A stretch of 64,000 bases of DNA, from assembly GCA_009996675.1 (NCBI GenBank), contig JAACZQ010000009.1:1-64000 (forward strand), written 5' to 3'. Of this stretch, positions 1,976 through 8,679 are shown one piece after another. The stretch is from Chitinophagaceae bacterium (lineage in GTDB: Bacteria; Bacteroidota; Bacteroidia; Chitinophagales; Chitinophagaceae). The translations under genes were made by a program, and so were the position numbers. The notes beneath the pieces are model-generated. The model saw nothing but the letters and a program-made list of their open reading frames with translations, did no database searches and was not told where the DNA came from. How positions within the stretch are numbered: the first letter of the stretch is position 1; the number at the start of each line of letters is the position of its first letter.

Positions 1976-2641
1976 ATGCATTTAGCTGCTATTTACTTTT
2001 ATTTTCAGCTATTAAGTTTAATCACCGCATTGATATTTTTGAAGAAAAGGGATAAGGTACTTTGGTACTTTATCCCTTTTTTACTGGTCACGGTGGTTAT
2101 TGAACTGATAGGTATCTGGTACACATACCGGGTTATCCGGAACTACTGGATGTATAATATATTCACCACATTCGAATATATTTTCTATGCATACCTGTTC
2201 CACCGGCATTTCCGTACCAATACTTTTCAGCAGATAGCCAAATGGTTTATCCCGGGTTATTTACTGGCGGTGATATTGAACCTGACTTTCATACAGGATG
2301 GTACTAAAACATTTCATACATACACATTCCTGTTAGGTGCTTTTTTTATTGTAGTTTTTTGTTGCTTTTTTCTGTTTGAATCGATACTGCCCGACCAGAT
2401 CAACCACAAGCTATCCATGCAGCCTTTTTTCTGGATATGCATCGGATTGTTGATATTTTATCTGGGTTCTGTGATCATTAACGCCTTGTTTGAATACCTT
2501 CGTAGTAACGATTTGCAGAAGCAGGGAATCCGGATTTATGGGATTATTAATAACAGTTTGAACGTAATTTTATACTGCTCATTTAGCATAGCATTTTTCT
2601 TATGCCACAAAAACAGGAAGACATACTCATCACCATCGTAA
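1976..2641 (+). CDS. Polytopic membrane protein of unknown function
   Basis: 221 aa with about 6-7 hydrophobic segments; 3' end overlaps the histidine kinase start by 40 nt. Confidence 0.7.
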   Translation: MHLAAIYFYFQLLSLITALIFLKKRDKVLWYFIPFLLVTVVIELIGIWYTYRVIRNYWMYNIFTTFEYIFYAYLFHRHFRTNTFQQIAKWFIPGYLLAVILNLTFIQDGTKTFHTYTFLLGAFFIVVFCCFFLFESILPDQINHKLSMQPFFWICIGLLIFYLGSVIINALFEYLRSNDLQKQGIRIYGIINNSLNVILYCSFSIAFFLCHKNRKTYSSPS

Positions 2642-3396
2642 TCGCTTCAGTTTTCCTGGTATTGATTGGATTTTTCTTATTGCTGATCGTGTTTGTTTTT
2701 CTCCGCCGGCAAAGAAAGTTTCAGCAGGAACGGGACGAAATGAAAAACCGGTTTGAACAAACGATCCTGAAAACCCAATTGGAGATACAGGAACAAACAT
2801 TTACCCATATCAGTCGCGAAATTCACGATAATATCGGGCAGGTACTAAGCCTCGTTCGTTTGAACATGAGTACTTTCAGCACCGTTACCACTGAACACGA
2901 AAAATTTGAACATACCGACGAATTGCTGGGCAAAGCCATCAAAGACTTACGCGATCTCAGTCATAGTTTACAAACCAACCGCATCCACGATATTGGCATT
3001 GTAGAATCCATTCGCCAATTACTGCTGACACTGGAAAAAACAGGCAGGTATAAAACCAAATTCTCCATTGTTGAGAATTACACGGGAATGGATAAAGACA
3101 CAGACCTGATTCTTTTCCGCATGATTCAGGAAGTAGTGAACAATATCCTGAAACATGCCAAAGCTGATACGATAACCATTGATATTACCGGGAATGAAAA
3201 AGAAACCACACTGATTATCAGCGATAATGGAGTAGGTTTTGATACAGAGAGATTGAAGACAGTTGGGCCTGGCATTGGTTTACAGAATATATTCAACCGG
3301 GCTAAGATGATTAATGCCACTGTTGATATAAAAAGTGAGCCCGGAAACGGAACAGCCATTATATTGCATGCAAAACAGAAATTGCCGCTCGTATGA
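2602..3396 (+). CDS. Sensor histidine kinase, HisKA_3/NarL-NreB type
   Basis: Single N-terminal TM, ISREIHDNIGQVLSLVRLNM phospho-acceptor helix, ATPase motifs VVNNILKHAKA and ISDNGVGFD; no separate sensory domain. Confidence 0.9.
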   Translation: MPQKQEDILITIVIASVFLVLIGFFLLLIVFVFLRRQRKFQQERDEMKNRFEQTILKTQLEIQEQTFTHISREIHDNIGQVLSLVRLNMSTFSTVTTEHEKFEHTDELLGKAIKDLRDLSHSLQTNRIHDIGIVESIRQLLLTLEKTGRYKTKFSIVENYTGMDKDTDLILFRMIQEVVNNILKHAKADTITIDITGNEKETTLIISDNGVGFDTERLKTVGPGIGLQNIFNRAKMINATVDIKSEPGNGTAIILHAKQKLPLV

Positions 3397-4046
3397 CCAA
3401 CGTAGCATTAGTTGATGACCATGAATTACTGCGCACCGGCCTTGCCTCAATGATCAACTCATTCGAGGGTTATAAGGTTATCATGGAAGCGGGTAATGGC
3501 AAGGAGTTTATCGAAGGATTGAAATCCAGCAAGATAACTCCGGCCATTGTTTTGCTGGACATCAATATGCCCATGATGGATGGCTTTGAAACAGCGGAAT
3601 GGATCAAGCTGAATATGCCCGATACCAAAGTACTGGTGCTGAGTATGCTGGAGAACGATATTGCCATCATCCGCATGCTTAAAAATGGTGCCAGGGGATA
3701 CCTGCTGAAAGACAGCAAACCTAAAATCTTCAAACAGGCGCTGGAGAATATCCGCGATACCGGTTACTTCATCAATGAACTGGTGAGTGATAAACTCATG
3801 CATTATATCAGCAACGAAGACTCCTATATCGGTGATGGCGCTGCACTCAGCAACCTCACCGAGAATGAAACCATTTTCCTGCAATGGATCTGTTCTGATA
3901 AAACCTACAAGGAAATCGCCGAGGAAATGCATATCAGTCCGCGTACCGTTGATACTTACCGCGACAACCTATTCAAAAAGCTAGATATCAAAACCCGGGT
4001 AGGCCTGGCCATTTTTGCCATCAAACACGGTATCGTTAGTATTTAA
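3393..4046 (+). CDS. NarL/LuxR-family response regulator
   Basis: Receiver domain (VALVDDHELLRTGL, VLLDINMPMMDG) plus LuxR HTH (LTENETIFLQWICSDKTYKEIAEEMHISPRTVDTYRDNLFKKL). Confidence 0.93.
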   Translation: MTNVALVDDHELLRTGLASMINSFEGYKVIMEAGNGKEFIEGLKSSKITPAIVLLDINMPMMDGFETAEWIKLNMPDTKVLVLSMLENDIAIIRMLKNGARGYLLKDSKPKIFKQALENIRDTGYFINELVSDKLMHYISNEDSYIGDGAALSNLTENETIFLQWICSDKTYKEIAEEMHISPRTVDTYRDNLFKKLDIKTRVGLAIFAIKHGIVSI

Positions 4047-6201
4047 TCCCGTTACCTGCTTCCCATAAATTACGGTATACCCCGGCTTGCTGCATCAATA
4101 CCGCATGGGTACCTTGCTGAACCAGTTTTCCTCCCGACAATACCAGCACCTCATCGCATTGCTGCAATACCTGCATCCGGTGTGCAATAAAGACAACCGT
4201 TTTTCCCTGGGCTACATACCACTTAATCGTTTGCATAACAGCTTCTTCCCCGGGTCGGTCCAGCGATGCACTGGCTTCATCGAGTAACAGAATATCCGGT
4301 TTGCGGTACAATGCTCTTACCAGGGCCAGCTTTTGTAATTCACCGCCGGAAAGCTGTATACCGCGATCCTGCAATACCGTATCATATCCATCCGGTAACT
4401 GATCAACAACAACATGCAAACCGGTTCGCTGTGCCAGCTCCTGTATATAACCCATTTCCGCAGGCTGATCCAGGCAGATGTTTTCCAGTAAAGTACCTGG
4501 CAGCAGGTGAACCTGTTGTGGTACCGTGCTGATCCTTTGTCGTAAATAGCAGGTATCCATCAACGCTATATCAATATTATTGATGGAAATCTGTCCGGCT
4601 GCCAGTGGGTATAATTTTAAAAGCATGGCAAAAACCGTTGATTTCCCGGCCCCGCTTTCACCCGTTATACCCGTAAGTCTCGCGGGTTGAATGATCAGGT
4701 TCAGGTCTTCAAATAAAACACGCCTGGGTCCGTGCTGAAAATCTACACCCCTAAACACAATAGGTCCGAGACATAGCTGATCGGGTAGAACAATCTTTTG
4801 TTTGGCATACAGGGCTTCTTCCTCCAGATCCAGGATATCCAGCAGGCGGTCTGTAGCTATGGCATTTTCCTGAATCGATTTACTGGCACCGATGAGCATT
4901 TGTACCGGACCCGTAAAGTATTCCGCAATGGCATAGAAGGATAATAATGTCCCGGCCGTTAATGCCTGCCGCAACACCATATCGGATCCTACCCATAATA
5001 CCAGGATGGTAATGGTTTTGGTAAACCCTTCCGTCATATACCCGATGGTATTATTACCCCTGCCGGTCCTGCCCATGGTTTGGATCAGGTCCAATGCCCG
5101 GCTTTCCACCCGGTCGACAGCCATTTGCTGTGTGCCGAATTTCTTATGCGTAGTTACACTTTGCAAGCCATCTACCAGCGCTGCTTCGAGGGAGGCCAGT
5201 TGTTCCATTGATACGCGCTGCCACCGGCGGTTAAACCGGTTACCGATCCAATAGATGATGCCATAAACAGGCATCAACAGCAAGAGCATCAACGCCAGTT
5301 GGCGTTGATAGATAAACATCAATAGCAATGAACTGAGGAGTATACAACTGTTCACAATCCATTGCATGATGGTTTCGCTCATGAATTGCCGGATACGCCC
5401 TGCATCATTTACCCGGCTGATGATTTCACCAATACGCATCGAATCAAAAAAACGCTGGGGCAGGTGCATCAGGTGACGGTAATAGCCCATCAGTAAACCC
5501 GCATCAACATGCTGCCCGATCTGTATACCCATATAACTCCGTATGGTACCCAGTACTACCTGTATCCAGATAATAAATAGCAATAGGCTGCTCATGCCAT
5601 TGAGCAGACTGGTATCGGTTCCCGAAAGCACGATATCCAATAACCATTGCAGGTAGATGGCCATGGACAGGCCCAGCAAAGTATATATCAATGCTCCAGC
5701 CAAGGATGACCAGAGCAGGTGCCGGTGGGGCTCCATCAGGTACCATAACCGGCGAAAACCTAAGCGGGTTTTGCCAGCGCCTGGCTCCAGTGCCGGAGCT
5801 TCCGGTAATAACAATATACCAGACCAGCGTTGCGCAAATTTTTTCAACGGCCACCATTGTAATAAACCGGTAGCCGGATCCATGATGCGTATCCTGTTTT
5901 CCTGTACGGTTGCAATAACTACAAAATGTAACAAGCCATTCTCCATTTGCAGGTGCGCAATTGCCGGAAGCGGAATTAATAACAAATGGTCGCTTGTTGC
6001 CCGTACAGCTTTGGCTTCCATCCCCATTTTCCGGCAGGCATTAATCATACCCAACATATTGGTTCCCCGGCCATCTGTACCCGCCCACTGCCGTATGGTC
6101 GCAATTGTATAACGTACATTATAACTGGCGGCAACAGCTACCAGACATGCCGGTCCGCAATCCGTAGCATCCTGTTGCTTTATGCAGCTGATTTTTTTCA
6201 T
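4036..6201 (-). CDS. Peptidase-containing ABC transporter (PCAT) with C39 peptidase, TM and ATPase domains
   Basis: C39 motif CIKQQDATDCGPACL, HFVV and DPATG; Walker A GESGAGKST, signature LSGGE, Walker B ILLLDEASASLD. ATG 6201 overlaps the HlyD stop as ATGA, so it is preferred over the track start 6234. Confidence 0.95.
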   Translation of the reverse strand: MKKISCIKQQDATDCGPACLVAVAASYNVRYTIATIRQWAGTDGRGTNMLGMINACRKMGMEAKAVRATSDHLLLIPLPAIAHLQMENGLLHFVVIATVQENRIRIMDPATGLLQWWPLKKFAQRWSGILLLPEAPALEPGAGKTRLGFRRLWYLMEPHRHLLWSSLAGALIYTLLGLSMAIYLQWLLDIVLSGTDTSLLNGMSSLLLFIIWIQVVLGTIRSYMGIQIGQHVDAGLLMGYYRHLMHLPQRFFDSMRIGEIISRVNDAGRIRQFMSETIMQWIVNSCILLSSLLLMFIYQRQLALMLLLLMPVYGIIYWIGNRFNRRWQRVSMEQLASLEAALVDGLQSVTTHKKFGTQQMAVDRVESRALDLIQTMGRTGRGNNTIGYMTEGFTKTITILVLWVGSDMVLRQALTAGTLLSFYAIAEYFTGPVQMLIGASKSIQENAIATDRLLDILDLEEEALYAKQKIVLPDQLCLGPIVFRGVDFQHGPRRVLFEDLNLIIQPARLTGITGESGAGKSTVFAMLLKLYPLAAGQISINNIDIALMDTCYLRQRISTVPQQVHLLPGTLLENICLDQPAEMGYIQELAQRTGLHVVVDQLPDGYDTVLQDRGIQLSGGELQKLALVRALYRKPDILLLDEASASLDRPGEEAVMQTIKWYVAQGKTVVFIAHRMQVLQQCDEVLVLSGGKLVQQGTHAVLMQQAGVYRNLWEAGNGIKY

Positions 6202-7370
6202 CCGCCAGATGCATTTTGTGGTACATGCAACCATTCATACACGCGGCCGGTGAGTAATTGCCACAATGTTTTCCGGGTCAGCAAAAAACGAGCCTGCAAT
6301 GACCAGCCATATTTGATATAGTGGCGCTGGCCGGAAGGACTCTGCAGATAAGACTGATCGAGTGTACAACGTACCCGAAATAAAGGCTTACCCTGTACCA
6401 ATACCGCATCATGATCCATCGACCATACCCTTCCTTGTAATACACCGAACACACGGGGATCATATGCATCAACACGCAGCGACACCGGCTGGCCAGGATA
6501 TAAATGTGGTATCACCGCAGGCGAAGCCCAACATTCTACCGTAATACTATCCTGTGGAATAATCGTGGCAATGACTGCCCCCATTTGCAGTATGGAACCC
6601 GGTTCTATGGCTTGCAGCAGTTGTAATTTCCCATTGATGCCTGCCCGTACAATATGATTATCCCTTTCCACAGCCCCAAGCCCCAATTGCGTTTTCCGGG
6701 AACTGATCTCTGCTACCAGCTGTAACTGTTCACGCCCCCATTGTTCCCGTTGTTTCTGTTCCAGACTTTTTAATGCCAGTAAGGCTTGCATATACGCCGT
6801 CTCACGATCATGCATATCCATACGGGGAATAATTCTTTCGCCAGCCAATTGCTCCATTGCCGCCAACTGTATCTGCAAACCCGTAATCTGTTGCTTCAGC
6901 TCGTTACGCTGCGACTGGAATGACGCGTACTGCAGCCGATAATTTTCGGTTTTTATATCAGTGATGCGGATTGCATCGCAAGTACTATCGGCAAGTAATA
7001 CCCAGAGGTCTTTTTGCTGATCCAGTAAACGGGTTAACTGCACCGAATCCTGTTGCCATTGCCACTGTCCCCCCGGGTTCGCTACCCAAAGCAATGTATC
7101 CGCTTTTGATACGGCTCTGCCATCCCAGACACGGCTCACCAACACCTGTCCGCTTACCGGCGACCGGATATCAAACCGATCGGATACGGGCCTTGTGGTT
7201 CCTGGCAAACTCGTTTGCAGGGGGATGGAACAGAAAGGCAGTGCCATCAATGCCAGAATCAATAAGAATAATAGCACCAGGTAGCAAACCCTGCCCAGTT
7301 TCGGCAAATGTGACAGGTACCAGCGTAACCGCTGCTGTTCACGATAAGGTAGAAAATCCATCGGTTCCAT
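6198..7370 (-). CDS. HlyD-family membrane-fusion (periplasmic adaptor) protein
   Basis: One N-terminal TM, barrel-sandwich segments (FDIRSPVSGQVLVSRVWDG / IVRAGINGKLQLLQAIEPGSILQMG), long coiled-coil region; directly upstream of the C39 ABC gene. Confidence 0.92.
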   Translation of the reverse strand: MEPMDFLPYREQQRLRWYLSHLPKLGRVCYLVLLFLLILALMALPFCSIPLQTSLPGTTRPVSDRFDIRSPVSGQVLVSRVWDGRAVSKADTLLWVANPGGQWQWQQDSVQLTRLLDQQKDLWVLLADSTCDAIRITDIKTENYRLQYASFQSQRNELKQQITGLQIQLAAMEQLAGERIIPRMDMHDRETAYMQALLALKSLEQKQREQWGREQLQLVAEISSRKTQLGLGAVERDNHIVRAGINGKLQLLQAIEPGSILQMGAVIATIIPQDSITVECWASPAVIPHLYPGQPVSLRVDAYDPRVFGVLQGRVWSMDHDAVLVQGKPLFRVRCTLDQSYLQSPSGQRHYIKYGWSLQARFLLTRKTLWQLLTGRVYEWLHVPQNASGG

Positions 7371-7371
7371 A

Positions 7372-7812
7372 TCACTGGTTTAACAGGTAATTGACTACAA
7401 ATGCCGTGAGATTATGCAGCATATGCACCAGACAGGTATGCCAGATAGCTGGCCAGTTGCGTATATGACTCACCATATACACCAAACCATATACCGTTCC
7501 CGATAACAGGGTTTTTACCATATAGGGCACAGAATAATGATGTAGCACCGAGAATACCAGGATACTCAATACCAGGCCGGGCCAGTACCGTTTCAACCAT
7601 TGGTGGCTGTAGCTGATCAATAAATGTTGTACCAGATAGGTTTCAACAATCGGACCAGCCAGTACGCCCACCACAAAGGCAAAATTCACTTCTGCGTCTT
7701 GCACTGATGATTGCTTCGACGGAAATAATATATAGCCAAATACAATCGATAGCGTTACCACCAGCAGATAAGCATAACCGATCAATTCGAATTTTCTGAT
7801 TCGCTGTATCAT
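7372..7812 (-). CDS. CPBP-family (Abi/CAAX-like) intramembrane protein
   Basis: Polytopic; CPBP-like motifs GPIVETYLVQHLL, FSVLHHYSVPYMV and HMLHN. The track start 7869 lies inside a hairpin; MIQRIRKFEL at 7812 is preferred. Confidence 0.7.
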   Translation of the reverse strand: MIQRIRKFELIGYAYLLVVTLSIVFGYILFPSKQSSVQDAEVNFAFVVGVLAGPIVETYLVQHLLISYSHQWLKRYWPGLVLSILVFSVLHHYSVPYMVKTLLSGTVYGLVYMVSHIRNWPAIWHTCLVHMLHNLTAFVVNYLLNQ

Positions 7813-7854
7813 AATTAATTGTATGCGTGAGGAAATACATCCCGGATAGAAAAC

Positions 7855-7876
7855 GTGGCCCTTATACAAGGGCCAC
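7855..7876 (-). terminator. Intra-operon hairpin (partial terminator/attenuator candidate)
   Basis: Perfect 9-bp stem GTGGCCCTT-ATAC-AAGGGCCAC, 11 nt past the peptide-1 stop, followed on the minus strand by GTTTTC. Confidence 0.6.
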
Positions 7877-7886
7877 GGAAGAAGCC

Positions 7887-8084
7887 TTACTTCTTCAGGT
7901 TGGGGGGAAGCGAACTTTGATAGGCAGAAGCCTGGGTCACGAACTCATAGTAACACCTGGAGATCACTCCTGTTACATAAGCAATATCGGCCCAGAAACT
8001 ACCTCCCTCTACGGCCAGCATTTCTACCGAACTGAGTGGCTGCATACAACTATTCGCCTGCTGCACCACAGATTTGTTTTTCAT
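7887..8084 (-). CDS. Double-glycine leader peptide precursor 1 (bacteriocin/pheromone-like)
   Basis: 65 aa; leader ...PLSSVEMLAVEGG matches LSxxE[LM]xxxxGG; 37-aa core SFWADIAYVTGVISRCYYEFVTQASAYQSSLPPNLKK; upstream of CPBP-HlyD-C39 ABC genes. Confidence 0.75.
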   Translation of the reverse strand: MKNKSVVQQANSCMQPLSSVEMLAVEGGSFWADIAYVTGVISRCYYEFVTQASAYQSSLPPNLKK

Positions 8085-8108
8085 AACAATCGATTTTAAA
8101 ATGATGAA

Positions 8109-8306
8109 TTACTTGTCGGCAAAATGCCAACCACGCGAAAAACCCTGTTTGATATCATCCCAATGCGCCAGCGCATCAACGATGATGGTATCCCGCAGAA
8201 GCTTACCGAACAAACTCCAGATAGCGCCTCCTTCTGTTGATACCAATTCCGCCCTGCTCAAAAGCTGCCATTCCATGGCTGCAGGATTTGTCTGGATCTT
8301 TTTCAT
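8109..8306 (-). CDS. Double-glycine leader peptide precursor 2 (bacteriocin/pheromone-like)
   Basis: 65 aa; leader ...LLSRAELVSTEGG; 38-aa core AIWSLFGKLLRDTIIVDALAHWDDIKQGFSRGWHFADK; 24 nt upstream of peptide 1. Confidence 0.75.
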   Translation of the reverse strand: MKKIQTNPAAMEWQLLSRAELVSTEGGAIWSLFGKLLRDTIIVDALAHWDDIKQGFSRGWHFADK

Positions 8307-8418
8307 AACAGTTGTTTTGAATTGATGTCTCGTTTTAATGACCTGTACGGGGTCATGGGCATACAGACAATCATCCCATTCCGCGAACGGAGAATCTGAT
8401 CATCATCACATACCGTTA

Positions 8419-8679
8419 TTAAGGAGGATCTGCAGGCTCCTCCTTCGTTGCCGAATAACAAAATCCCAACTTGAAACAACCATCCTCCTCATAATAGTAG
8501 GTCTTCTTGTATTTATTGTACCGGATCGGCGCACCCAGTCGCTTCATGATACTCAGATACGCAAAGAGCGTGGTCTGTGATATGTCCAGCTTTAACGCCA
8601 TTGCAGCCGGACTACCAGTACACCGCCGCAGGATCAGCTCATCCATCTTTTGGAGATTACTTATTGCCAGTCGGGTCAT
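8419..8679 (-). CDS. Small HTH transcriptional regulator heading the peptide cassette
   Basis: HTH-like SPAAMALKLDISQTTLFAYLSIMKRLGAPIRYNKYKKTYYYEEDGCFKLGF. ATG 8679 is preferred over 8913 because of its TGTTATGA start context and because the longer form overlaps the divergent porZ. Confidence 0.65.
   Translation of the reverse strand: MTRLAISNLQKMDELILRRCTGSPAAMALKLDISQTTLFAYLSIMKRLGAPIRYNKYKKTYYYEEDGCFKLGFCYSATKEEPADPP

Follow-up and report, generated by a model that had tools for sequence, protein, structure and literature searches.

The 64,000-nucleotide stretch of a Chitinophagaceae bacterium analysed here (GCA_009996675.1, contig JAACZQ010000009.1, positions 1 to 64,000; hereafter the window) contains a six-gene cassette which, with a probability that we put at roughly 0.7, encodes a two-peptide unmodified (class IIb-like) bacteriocin together with its immunity protein. 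This reading draws on the gene order, the leaders, the intact catalytic residues, the conservation of both peptide families and the exchange of the peptides and the CPBP gene as a block. As described in the initial annotation, a regulator, two peptides, a CPBP-like protein, a HlyD adaptor and a C39-peptidase ABC transporter are encoded on one strand, and all six open reading frames (ORFs) were found to be present and complete in a base-level check. In order of transcription, the features are:

8419-8679, minus strand: REG, small winged-helix/helix-turn-helix (HTH) regulator of 86 aa, accessory (translation; sub-threshold HTH_11 match)
8307-8418, minus strand: REG-pepB spacer with a conserved non-coding element (conservation in same-site cassettes)
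8109-8306, minus strand: pepB, 65-aa precursor with a double-glycine (GG) leader and GxxxG near the C-terminus (conserved in 12 aligned members)
7887-8084, minus strand: pepA, 65-aa GG-leader precursor (conserved in 13 aligned members)
7372-7812, minus strand: CPBP (PF02517) membrane protein of 146 aa, predicted immunity protein (Pfam, motifs, structure model)
6198-7370, minus strand: HlyD-type periplasmic adaptor of 390 aa (HlyD_3, 2.2e-12)
4036-6201, minus strand: C39-peptidase ABC exporter of 721 aa, a peptidase-containing ABC transporter (PCAT) (Pfam, invariant triad, best solved match 4ry2)

The ATG of the ABC gene at 6201 overlaps the HlyD stop codon as ATGA, again as annotated, and the 732-aa form given in the ORF list uses an in-frame start further upstream. 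No gene for a modification enzyme, disulfide machinery or a thiol oxidoreductase was found within the cassette. The source genome is a 3.25-Mb assembly that is 95% complete, and in it the window gene is the single full-length match to the C39-ABC protein, the other matches covering ABC domains only. The comparison with relatives covered 80 named loci and about 1,600 genomes. Sediminibacterium is the most likely genus, because pepA and pepB of a second genome from the same GTDB genus (G396) do not differ from their counterparts in Sediminibacterium sp. C3 (L093).

The two peptides and their exporter

pepB, which precedes pepA in the transcription order, has a leader of 27 aa (8226-8306) and a core of 38 aa starting with AIW (AIWSLFGKLLRDTIIVDALAHWDDIKQGFSRGWHFADK, 8112-8225), and pepA has a leader of 28 aa (8001-8084) and a core of 37 aa starting with SFW (SFWADIAYVTGVISRCYYEFVTQASAYQSSLPPNLKK, 7890-8000). 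Both precursors carry L at position -12, E at -8, L or M at -7, a hydrophobic residue or T at -4 and G at -2 and -1, beside a C39 transporter. They are the sole ORFs with this strict leader pattern in the window, and none was obtained in 60 block-shuffled windows. The strict-pattern match and the translations bear out what had been annotated about the canonical leaders and about the lengths and first residues of the cores; the cysteine count, one in the pepA core and none in the pepB core, was also correct. The pepA family ends in a conserved (E/A)YQxSLPxNLKK motif, of which YQxSLPxNLKK forms the core end, and the pepB family core ends in W(D/E)xIKxGxxxGW. A strict GxxxG motif is found in nine of ten pepB cores, and amphipathic segments are seen in the cores of both peptides. 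An extended GxxxGxxxG is absent from the window cores, and neither a PDB sequence search with the pepA and pepB profiles nor a PHROGs search gave a match. The single cysteine of pepA sits in an RCxxEF motif (7941-7958, minus strand), which is shared with L090 and L113 and hence common to the three intact loci at the window's chromosomal site, and which is not seen in other pepA members; covalent pepA homodimers formed through this residue are possible.

The ABC protein matches Peptidase_C39 (8.6e-32), ABC_membrane and ABC_tran above the gathering thresholds and has the make-up that defines a PCAT, a C39 domain with a Cys/His/Asp triad fused to ABC transmembrane and nucleotide-binding domains. 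The triad, Cys15, His92 and Asp108, is invariant across seven aligned relatives. Solved C39 peptide exporters are matched over the full length, the best being 4ry2, an ABC-type bacteriocin transporter (6e-127). The likeness to PCAT exporters such as PCAT1 and ComA thus covers the whole protein and its intact triad; unlike these, the cassette exporter is paired with a HlyD adaptor suited to a double-membrane envelope.

A strong relative of the transporter is present in 32 of 249 family genomes. When the neighbourhoods of these relatives and the 80 named loci were searched with peptide and CPBP profiles, the order pepB-pepA-CPBP-HlyD-ABC recurred in eight Sediminibacterium, two Flavihumibacter and one Hydrotalea loci, and more diverged two-peptide versions were found in L057, L098, L099 and L112. 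The Sediminibacterium carriers include S. salmoneum and S. magnilacihabitans, which together with F. cheonanensis are culturable carriers of the family. Strong pepA matches (E<1e-15) occur in 8 of 399 family genomes, and no strong pepB match was found outside the Chitinophagaceae among 395 genomes of the class. Conserved small GG-leader ORFs beside homologous transporters, on whose existence the initial annotation had staked its reading, are therefore present in several genera, and its reading as a two-peptide cassette dedicated to GG export has good support from the conserved peptides and gene order.

For these protein families, it is established that the precursor is cleaved after the double glycine and that the product leaves the cell via HlyD and an outer-membrane protein. 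In the cassette, the pepB and pepA precursors would be produced together, presumably under the control of REG, and the C39 domain of the exporter would cleave each of them after GG. The 38-aa and 37-aa cores could then be exported by the ABC-HlyD complex and a TolC-type outer-membrane protein encoded elsewhere. Outside the cell, the two largely helical cores would jointly attack the membrane of closely related bacteria, pepB supplying the putative GxxxG helix-contact motif, and the CPBP protein in the inner membrane of the producer would confer self-immunity.

Exchange of the peptides with the CPBP gene

Two Sediminibacterium metagenome-assembled genomes (MAGs), L091 and L092, have an identical 5' flank over 1,970 bp, and their divergence begins within the two GG codons of pepB, such that the two share the leader and differ in the mature peptide. 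The swapped block of about 1 kb (6955-7944 in L091) comprises the pepB core, pepA, the CPBP gene and the HlyD N-terminus and is 50-75% identical; beyond it, from codon 28 of HlyD to the end of the ABC gene, identity is again 100%. At the protein level, the ABC exporters are 100% identical, compared with 34% for CPBP, 49% for the pepB core and 65% for the pepA core. A third locus, L094, has both cores in common with L092, but a different CPBP variant (71% identical). Across 12 loci, the distances among pepA, pepB and CPBP correlate with each other (r 0.69-0.75) and with those of the transporter only at r 0.36-0.45; in partial Mantel tests controlling for ABC, the values are 0.64 for pepA-CPBP, 0.69 for pepB-CPBP and 0.64 for pepA-pepB (all p<0.001). 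In L056, a close relative of L113, pepB is deleted. Compared with L113, the N-terminal half of the L056 pepA core has a dN/dS of 1.35, with 14 nonsynonymous changes in 19 codons, and the leader and C-terminus have a dN/dS of 0.11. Such fast change of the pepA core after the loss of pepB would be expected if both peptides work together.

The cassette had initially been annotated as a bacteriocin pair or a pheromone pair, and of these a bacteriocin pair is favoured because the peptides and the CPBP gene are swapped together, their divergences correlate, the neighbouring two-component system also exists without the cassette and the pepA core changes after pepB loss. As pheromones, the exported cores would be signals sensed by the histidine kinase and response regulator that adjoin the cassette (2602-4046) or via REG, which we consider quite unlikely. 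Export of GG-leader peptides by C39 transporters also serves pheromones, BlpC/ComC models match weakly, in the leader, and a two-component system does lie next door. However, the kinase and the response regulator are also conserved in cassette-less sisters of the genus (G089 and G167) and do not adjoin most other cassettes, most cassettes are without REG, and the swapped block holds no co-varying receptor, whereas CPBP does co-vary. The presence of the two-component system in the cassette-less sisters shows that it belongs to the site and not to the cassette, and its assignment to the cassette was rejected on this synteny.

Returning to the bacteriocin reading, the family offers sequence-matched alleles of the toxin and of the predicted immunity protein, and the natural swap between L091 and L092 predicts that immunity is allele-specific. 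We tentatively propose, as a possibility that falls somewhat short of an even chance, a new class of two-peptide bacteriocins in the Bacteroidota, in which strains exchange the toxin pair and CPBP immunity as a single allelic block whose left recombination boundary falls at the leader/core junction, so that one constant leader and exporter serve interchangeable alleles.

The CPBP protein and known bacteriocin systems

The CPBP protein of the window matches PF02517 (Rce1-like/CPBP) with an E-value of 1.3e-7 (32.2 bits against a gathering threshold of 22.4), and the same family is matched by all 14 CPBP members. The motifs ETxxxQ, FxxxH and HxxxN, and with them the E, H, H and N residues, are invariant in these 14 relatives, and the structure model is confident (pLDDT 92). 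Judged from sequence and genomic context, this protein is likely an immunity protein. In plantaricin loci, the immunity protein is of the CPBP/Abi type. CPBP proteins are also described as parts of bacteriocin clusters and as immunity proteins in PMC9298176 and PMC4985602, each with reference to Kjos 2010.

The main alternative to the immunity role is peptide processing. Here, CPBP would be a second-step protease trimming toxic peptides that leave through the same exporter, with immunity encoded elsewhere or absent, as for the bacteroidetocins, whose producers have no self-protection (PMC6671954). The four invariant residues of the three motifs are consistent with a protease, and the co-swap would also fit an enzyme adapted to its own substrate. 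Against this, all 14 members have ETxxxQ as their first motif and not the EExxxR of the family, L075 keeps both peptides without CPBP, and the L056 CPBP gene has remained under purifying selection after pepB loss (dN/dS 0.12), the last being a weak argument since the ABC gene behaves alike. Overall, we regard a processing role as unlikely.

Several observations weigh against a two-peptide bacteriocin with CPBP immunity. SilX and SagE are precedents for CPBP proteins that process peptides (PMC9298176), and neither a PDB fold search with the CPBP model nor a PDB profile search returned an Rce1-type fold. As L075 encodes both peptides and the exporter without an adjoining CPBP gene, CPBP cannot serve as the immunity protein in every member. 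A strict GxxxG motif is present in only two of ten pepA cores (small-xxx-small in ten of ten), whereas class IIb systems are expected to have GxxxG or a GxxxG-like motif in both peptides, and the net charge of the cores (-2 to +3) is below the cationic level usual in that class. Also, L091 and L092 are MAG contigs, and strain-mixed assembly could contribute to the picture of a swap, although distinct alleles are found in three separate assemblies (L091, L092 and L094). Lastly, the pepB loss in L056 is a single event, and the change there may reflect either relaxed constraint or diversifying selection.

For the most part, the combination of a two-peptide bacteriocin with a membrane immunity protein is known from lactic acid bacteria, which are Gram-positive. 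As in the class IIb systems lactococcin G and plantaricin EF/JK, two small unmodified GG-leader peptides are encoded together with a C39-ABC exporter and an operon membrane protein, and a GxxxG motif is present, here mostly in pepB; the plantaricin JK peptides interact through GxxxG, and their operon carries immunity genes (PMC4985602). The class IIb anatomy of two different unmodified peptides in an operon with predicted immunity and exporter genes is found in the cassette and is conserved across genera. In contrast to these systems, the cassette resides in a Gram-negative Bacteroidota host, includes a HlyD adaptor and encodes near-neutral cores. Membership in known class IIb families was tested with NCBIfam and Pfam for all peptide relatives, including the models for the lactococcin G alpha/beta and cerein 7B families (NF038035, NF038034 and TIGR03949), and rejected, as the matches are below threshold and mostly driven by the leader; for instance, one relative scores 22.9 bits against a cut-off of 37 (NF038034) and 17.8 against 21.5 (TIGR03949). 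The window peptides reach no curated cut-off, and isolated cores match nothing. We file the cassette as a predicted class IIb-like two-peptide bacteriocin system of the Chitinophagaceae.

GG-exported bacteriocins already known from the Bacteroidota, the class IIa-like bacteroidetocins of Bacteroidales, are single peptides of 42 aa with four cysteines and a thiol oxidoreductase and without an immunity gene (PMC6671954). The cassette differs from them in having two peptides, with one cysteine in the pepA core and none in the pepB core, and a CPBP gene. A described two-peptide bacteriocin from the Bacteroidota was not found in literature searches, which cover subscription papers poorly. The Cdz system of Caulobacter crescentus is a Gram-negative precedent with two small peptides, type I secretion and an inner-membrane immunity protein (PMC5380434), the last of which is predicted for the cassette. 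A Cdz-like, contact-dependent mode of action, with peptides remaining on the producer surface and killing neighbours by contact, is nevertheless very unlikely: Cdz peptides are aggregating glycine-zipper peptides, whereas the window cores are not glycine-zipper rich, and CdzI is a small transmembrane protein and not a CPBP protein, a CaaX protease encoded near cdz being dispensable there.

Chromosomal site, regulator and upstream elements

In the window, L056 (without pepB), L113 and L090, the cassette with REG adjoins an 8803-type gene, and the other flank is formed by the response regulator in the window and L056. In the cassette-less sisters, the distance from the response-regulator gene to the 8803-type gene is 40 bp in G167 and about 0.9 kb in G089, where a further small gene lies in between. 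The cassette is thus gained and lost at the site as a unit. Carriage on plasmids was rejected, as these hold only distant transporter relatives (<60% identity).

REG has a sub-threshold Pfam match to HTH_11 alone, and its model, of moderate confidence (pLDDT 74), gives only weak, generic winged-helix fold matches. Homologues occur in 34 of 249 family genomes, mostly not near transporters, and REG itself is found only in the four cassettes at the window's chromosomal site and is missing from most others; it is not a core part of the cassette. The "own regulator" of the initial annotation therefore applies to these four cassettes but not as a general trait, since the family is one of general small winged-helix proteins encoded beside unrelated genes and sometimes beside small secreted peptides. 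In L047 and L048, REG relatives directly adjoin genes for small secreted Cys-containing peptides, three in a row in L047, and this small HTH family may often accompany secreted-peptide genes.

The REG-pepB spacer contains a non-coding element, GAATGGGATGATTGTCTGTATGCC (8358-8381), whose sequence is conserved among same-site cassettes and which is a candidate operator or 5' untranslated region (UTR). For the conserved upstream element, a structured RNA was rejected, with fold z-scores near 0, no covariation and no Rfam match. Another non-coding element of 34 nt, GAGTTCACGGTAGCGGGANTTNTGCGTGACGCTG, lies upstream of pepB with near-perfect conservation from Sediminibacterium to Hydrotalea (L091:6807-6840, L092, L093, L094, L117, L142, L096, and L215 on the reverse strand at about 150-183) and is a candidate operator or unusual 5' UTR; it too gives no RNA-fold signal. 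Its one other match in 299 family genomes, with three mismatches and in another genus, precedes the gene of a small secreted peptide that contains Cys.

Other C39 loci of the family, in L058, L059, L061, L062, L064, L065, L069 and L070, lie beside GG peptides rich in Gly/Ala/Leu repeats, with the glycine-zipper look of Cdz. Tandem GG-leader peptides in L055 (reverse-complement 3546-6105), L053 and L102 have cores whose opening hydrophobic stretch ends in a Gly-Cys resembling a lipobox (IIPLLIIGAILLVGGC...), which gives the look of a lipoprotein signal placed after a C39 leader. Between a CPBP gene and HlyD of L057 (reverse-complement 5582-5698), a 38-aa ORF without a GG leader combines a transmembrane-like stretch with a pepB-type ending (DWEDAKQGFLDGYNSQ) and is a possible immunity mimic.

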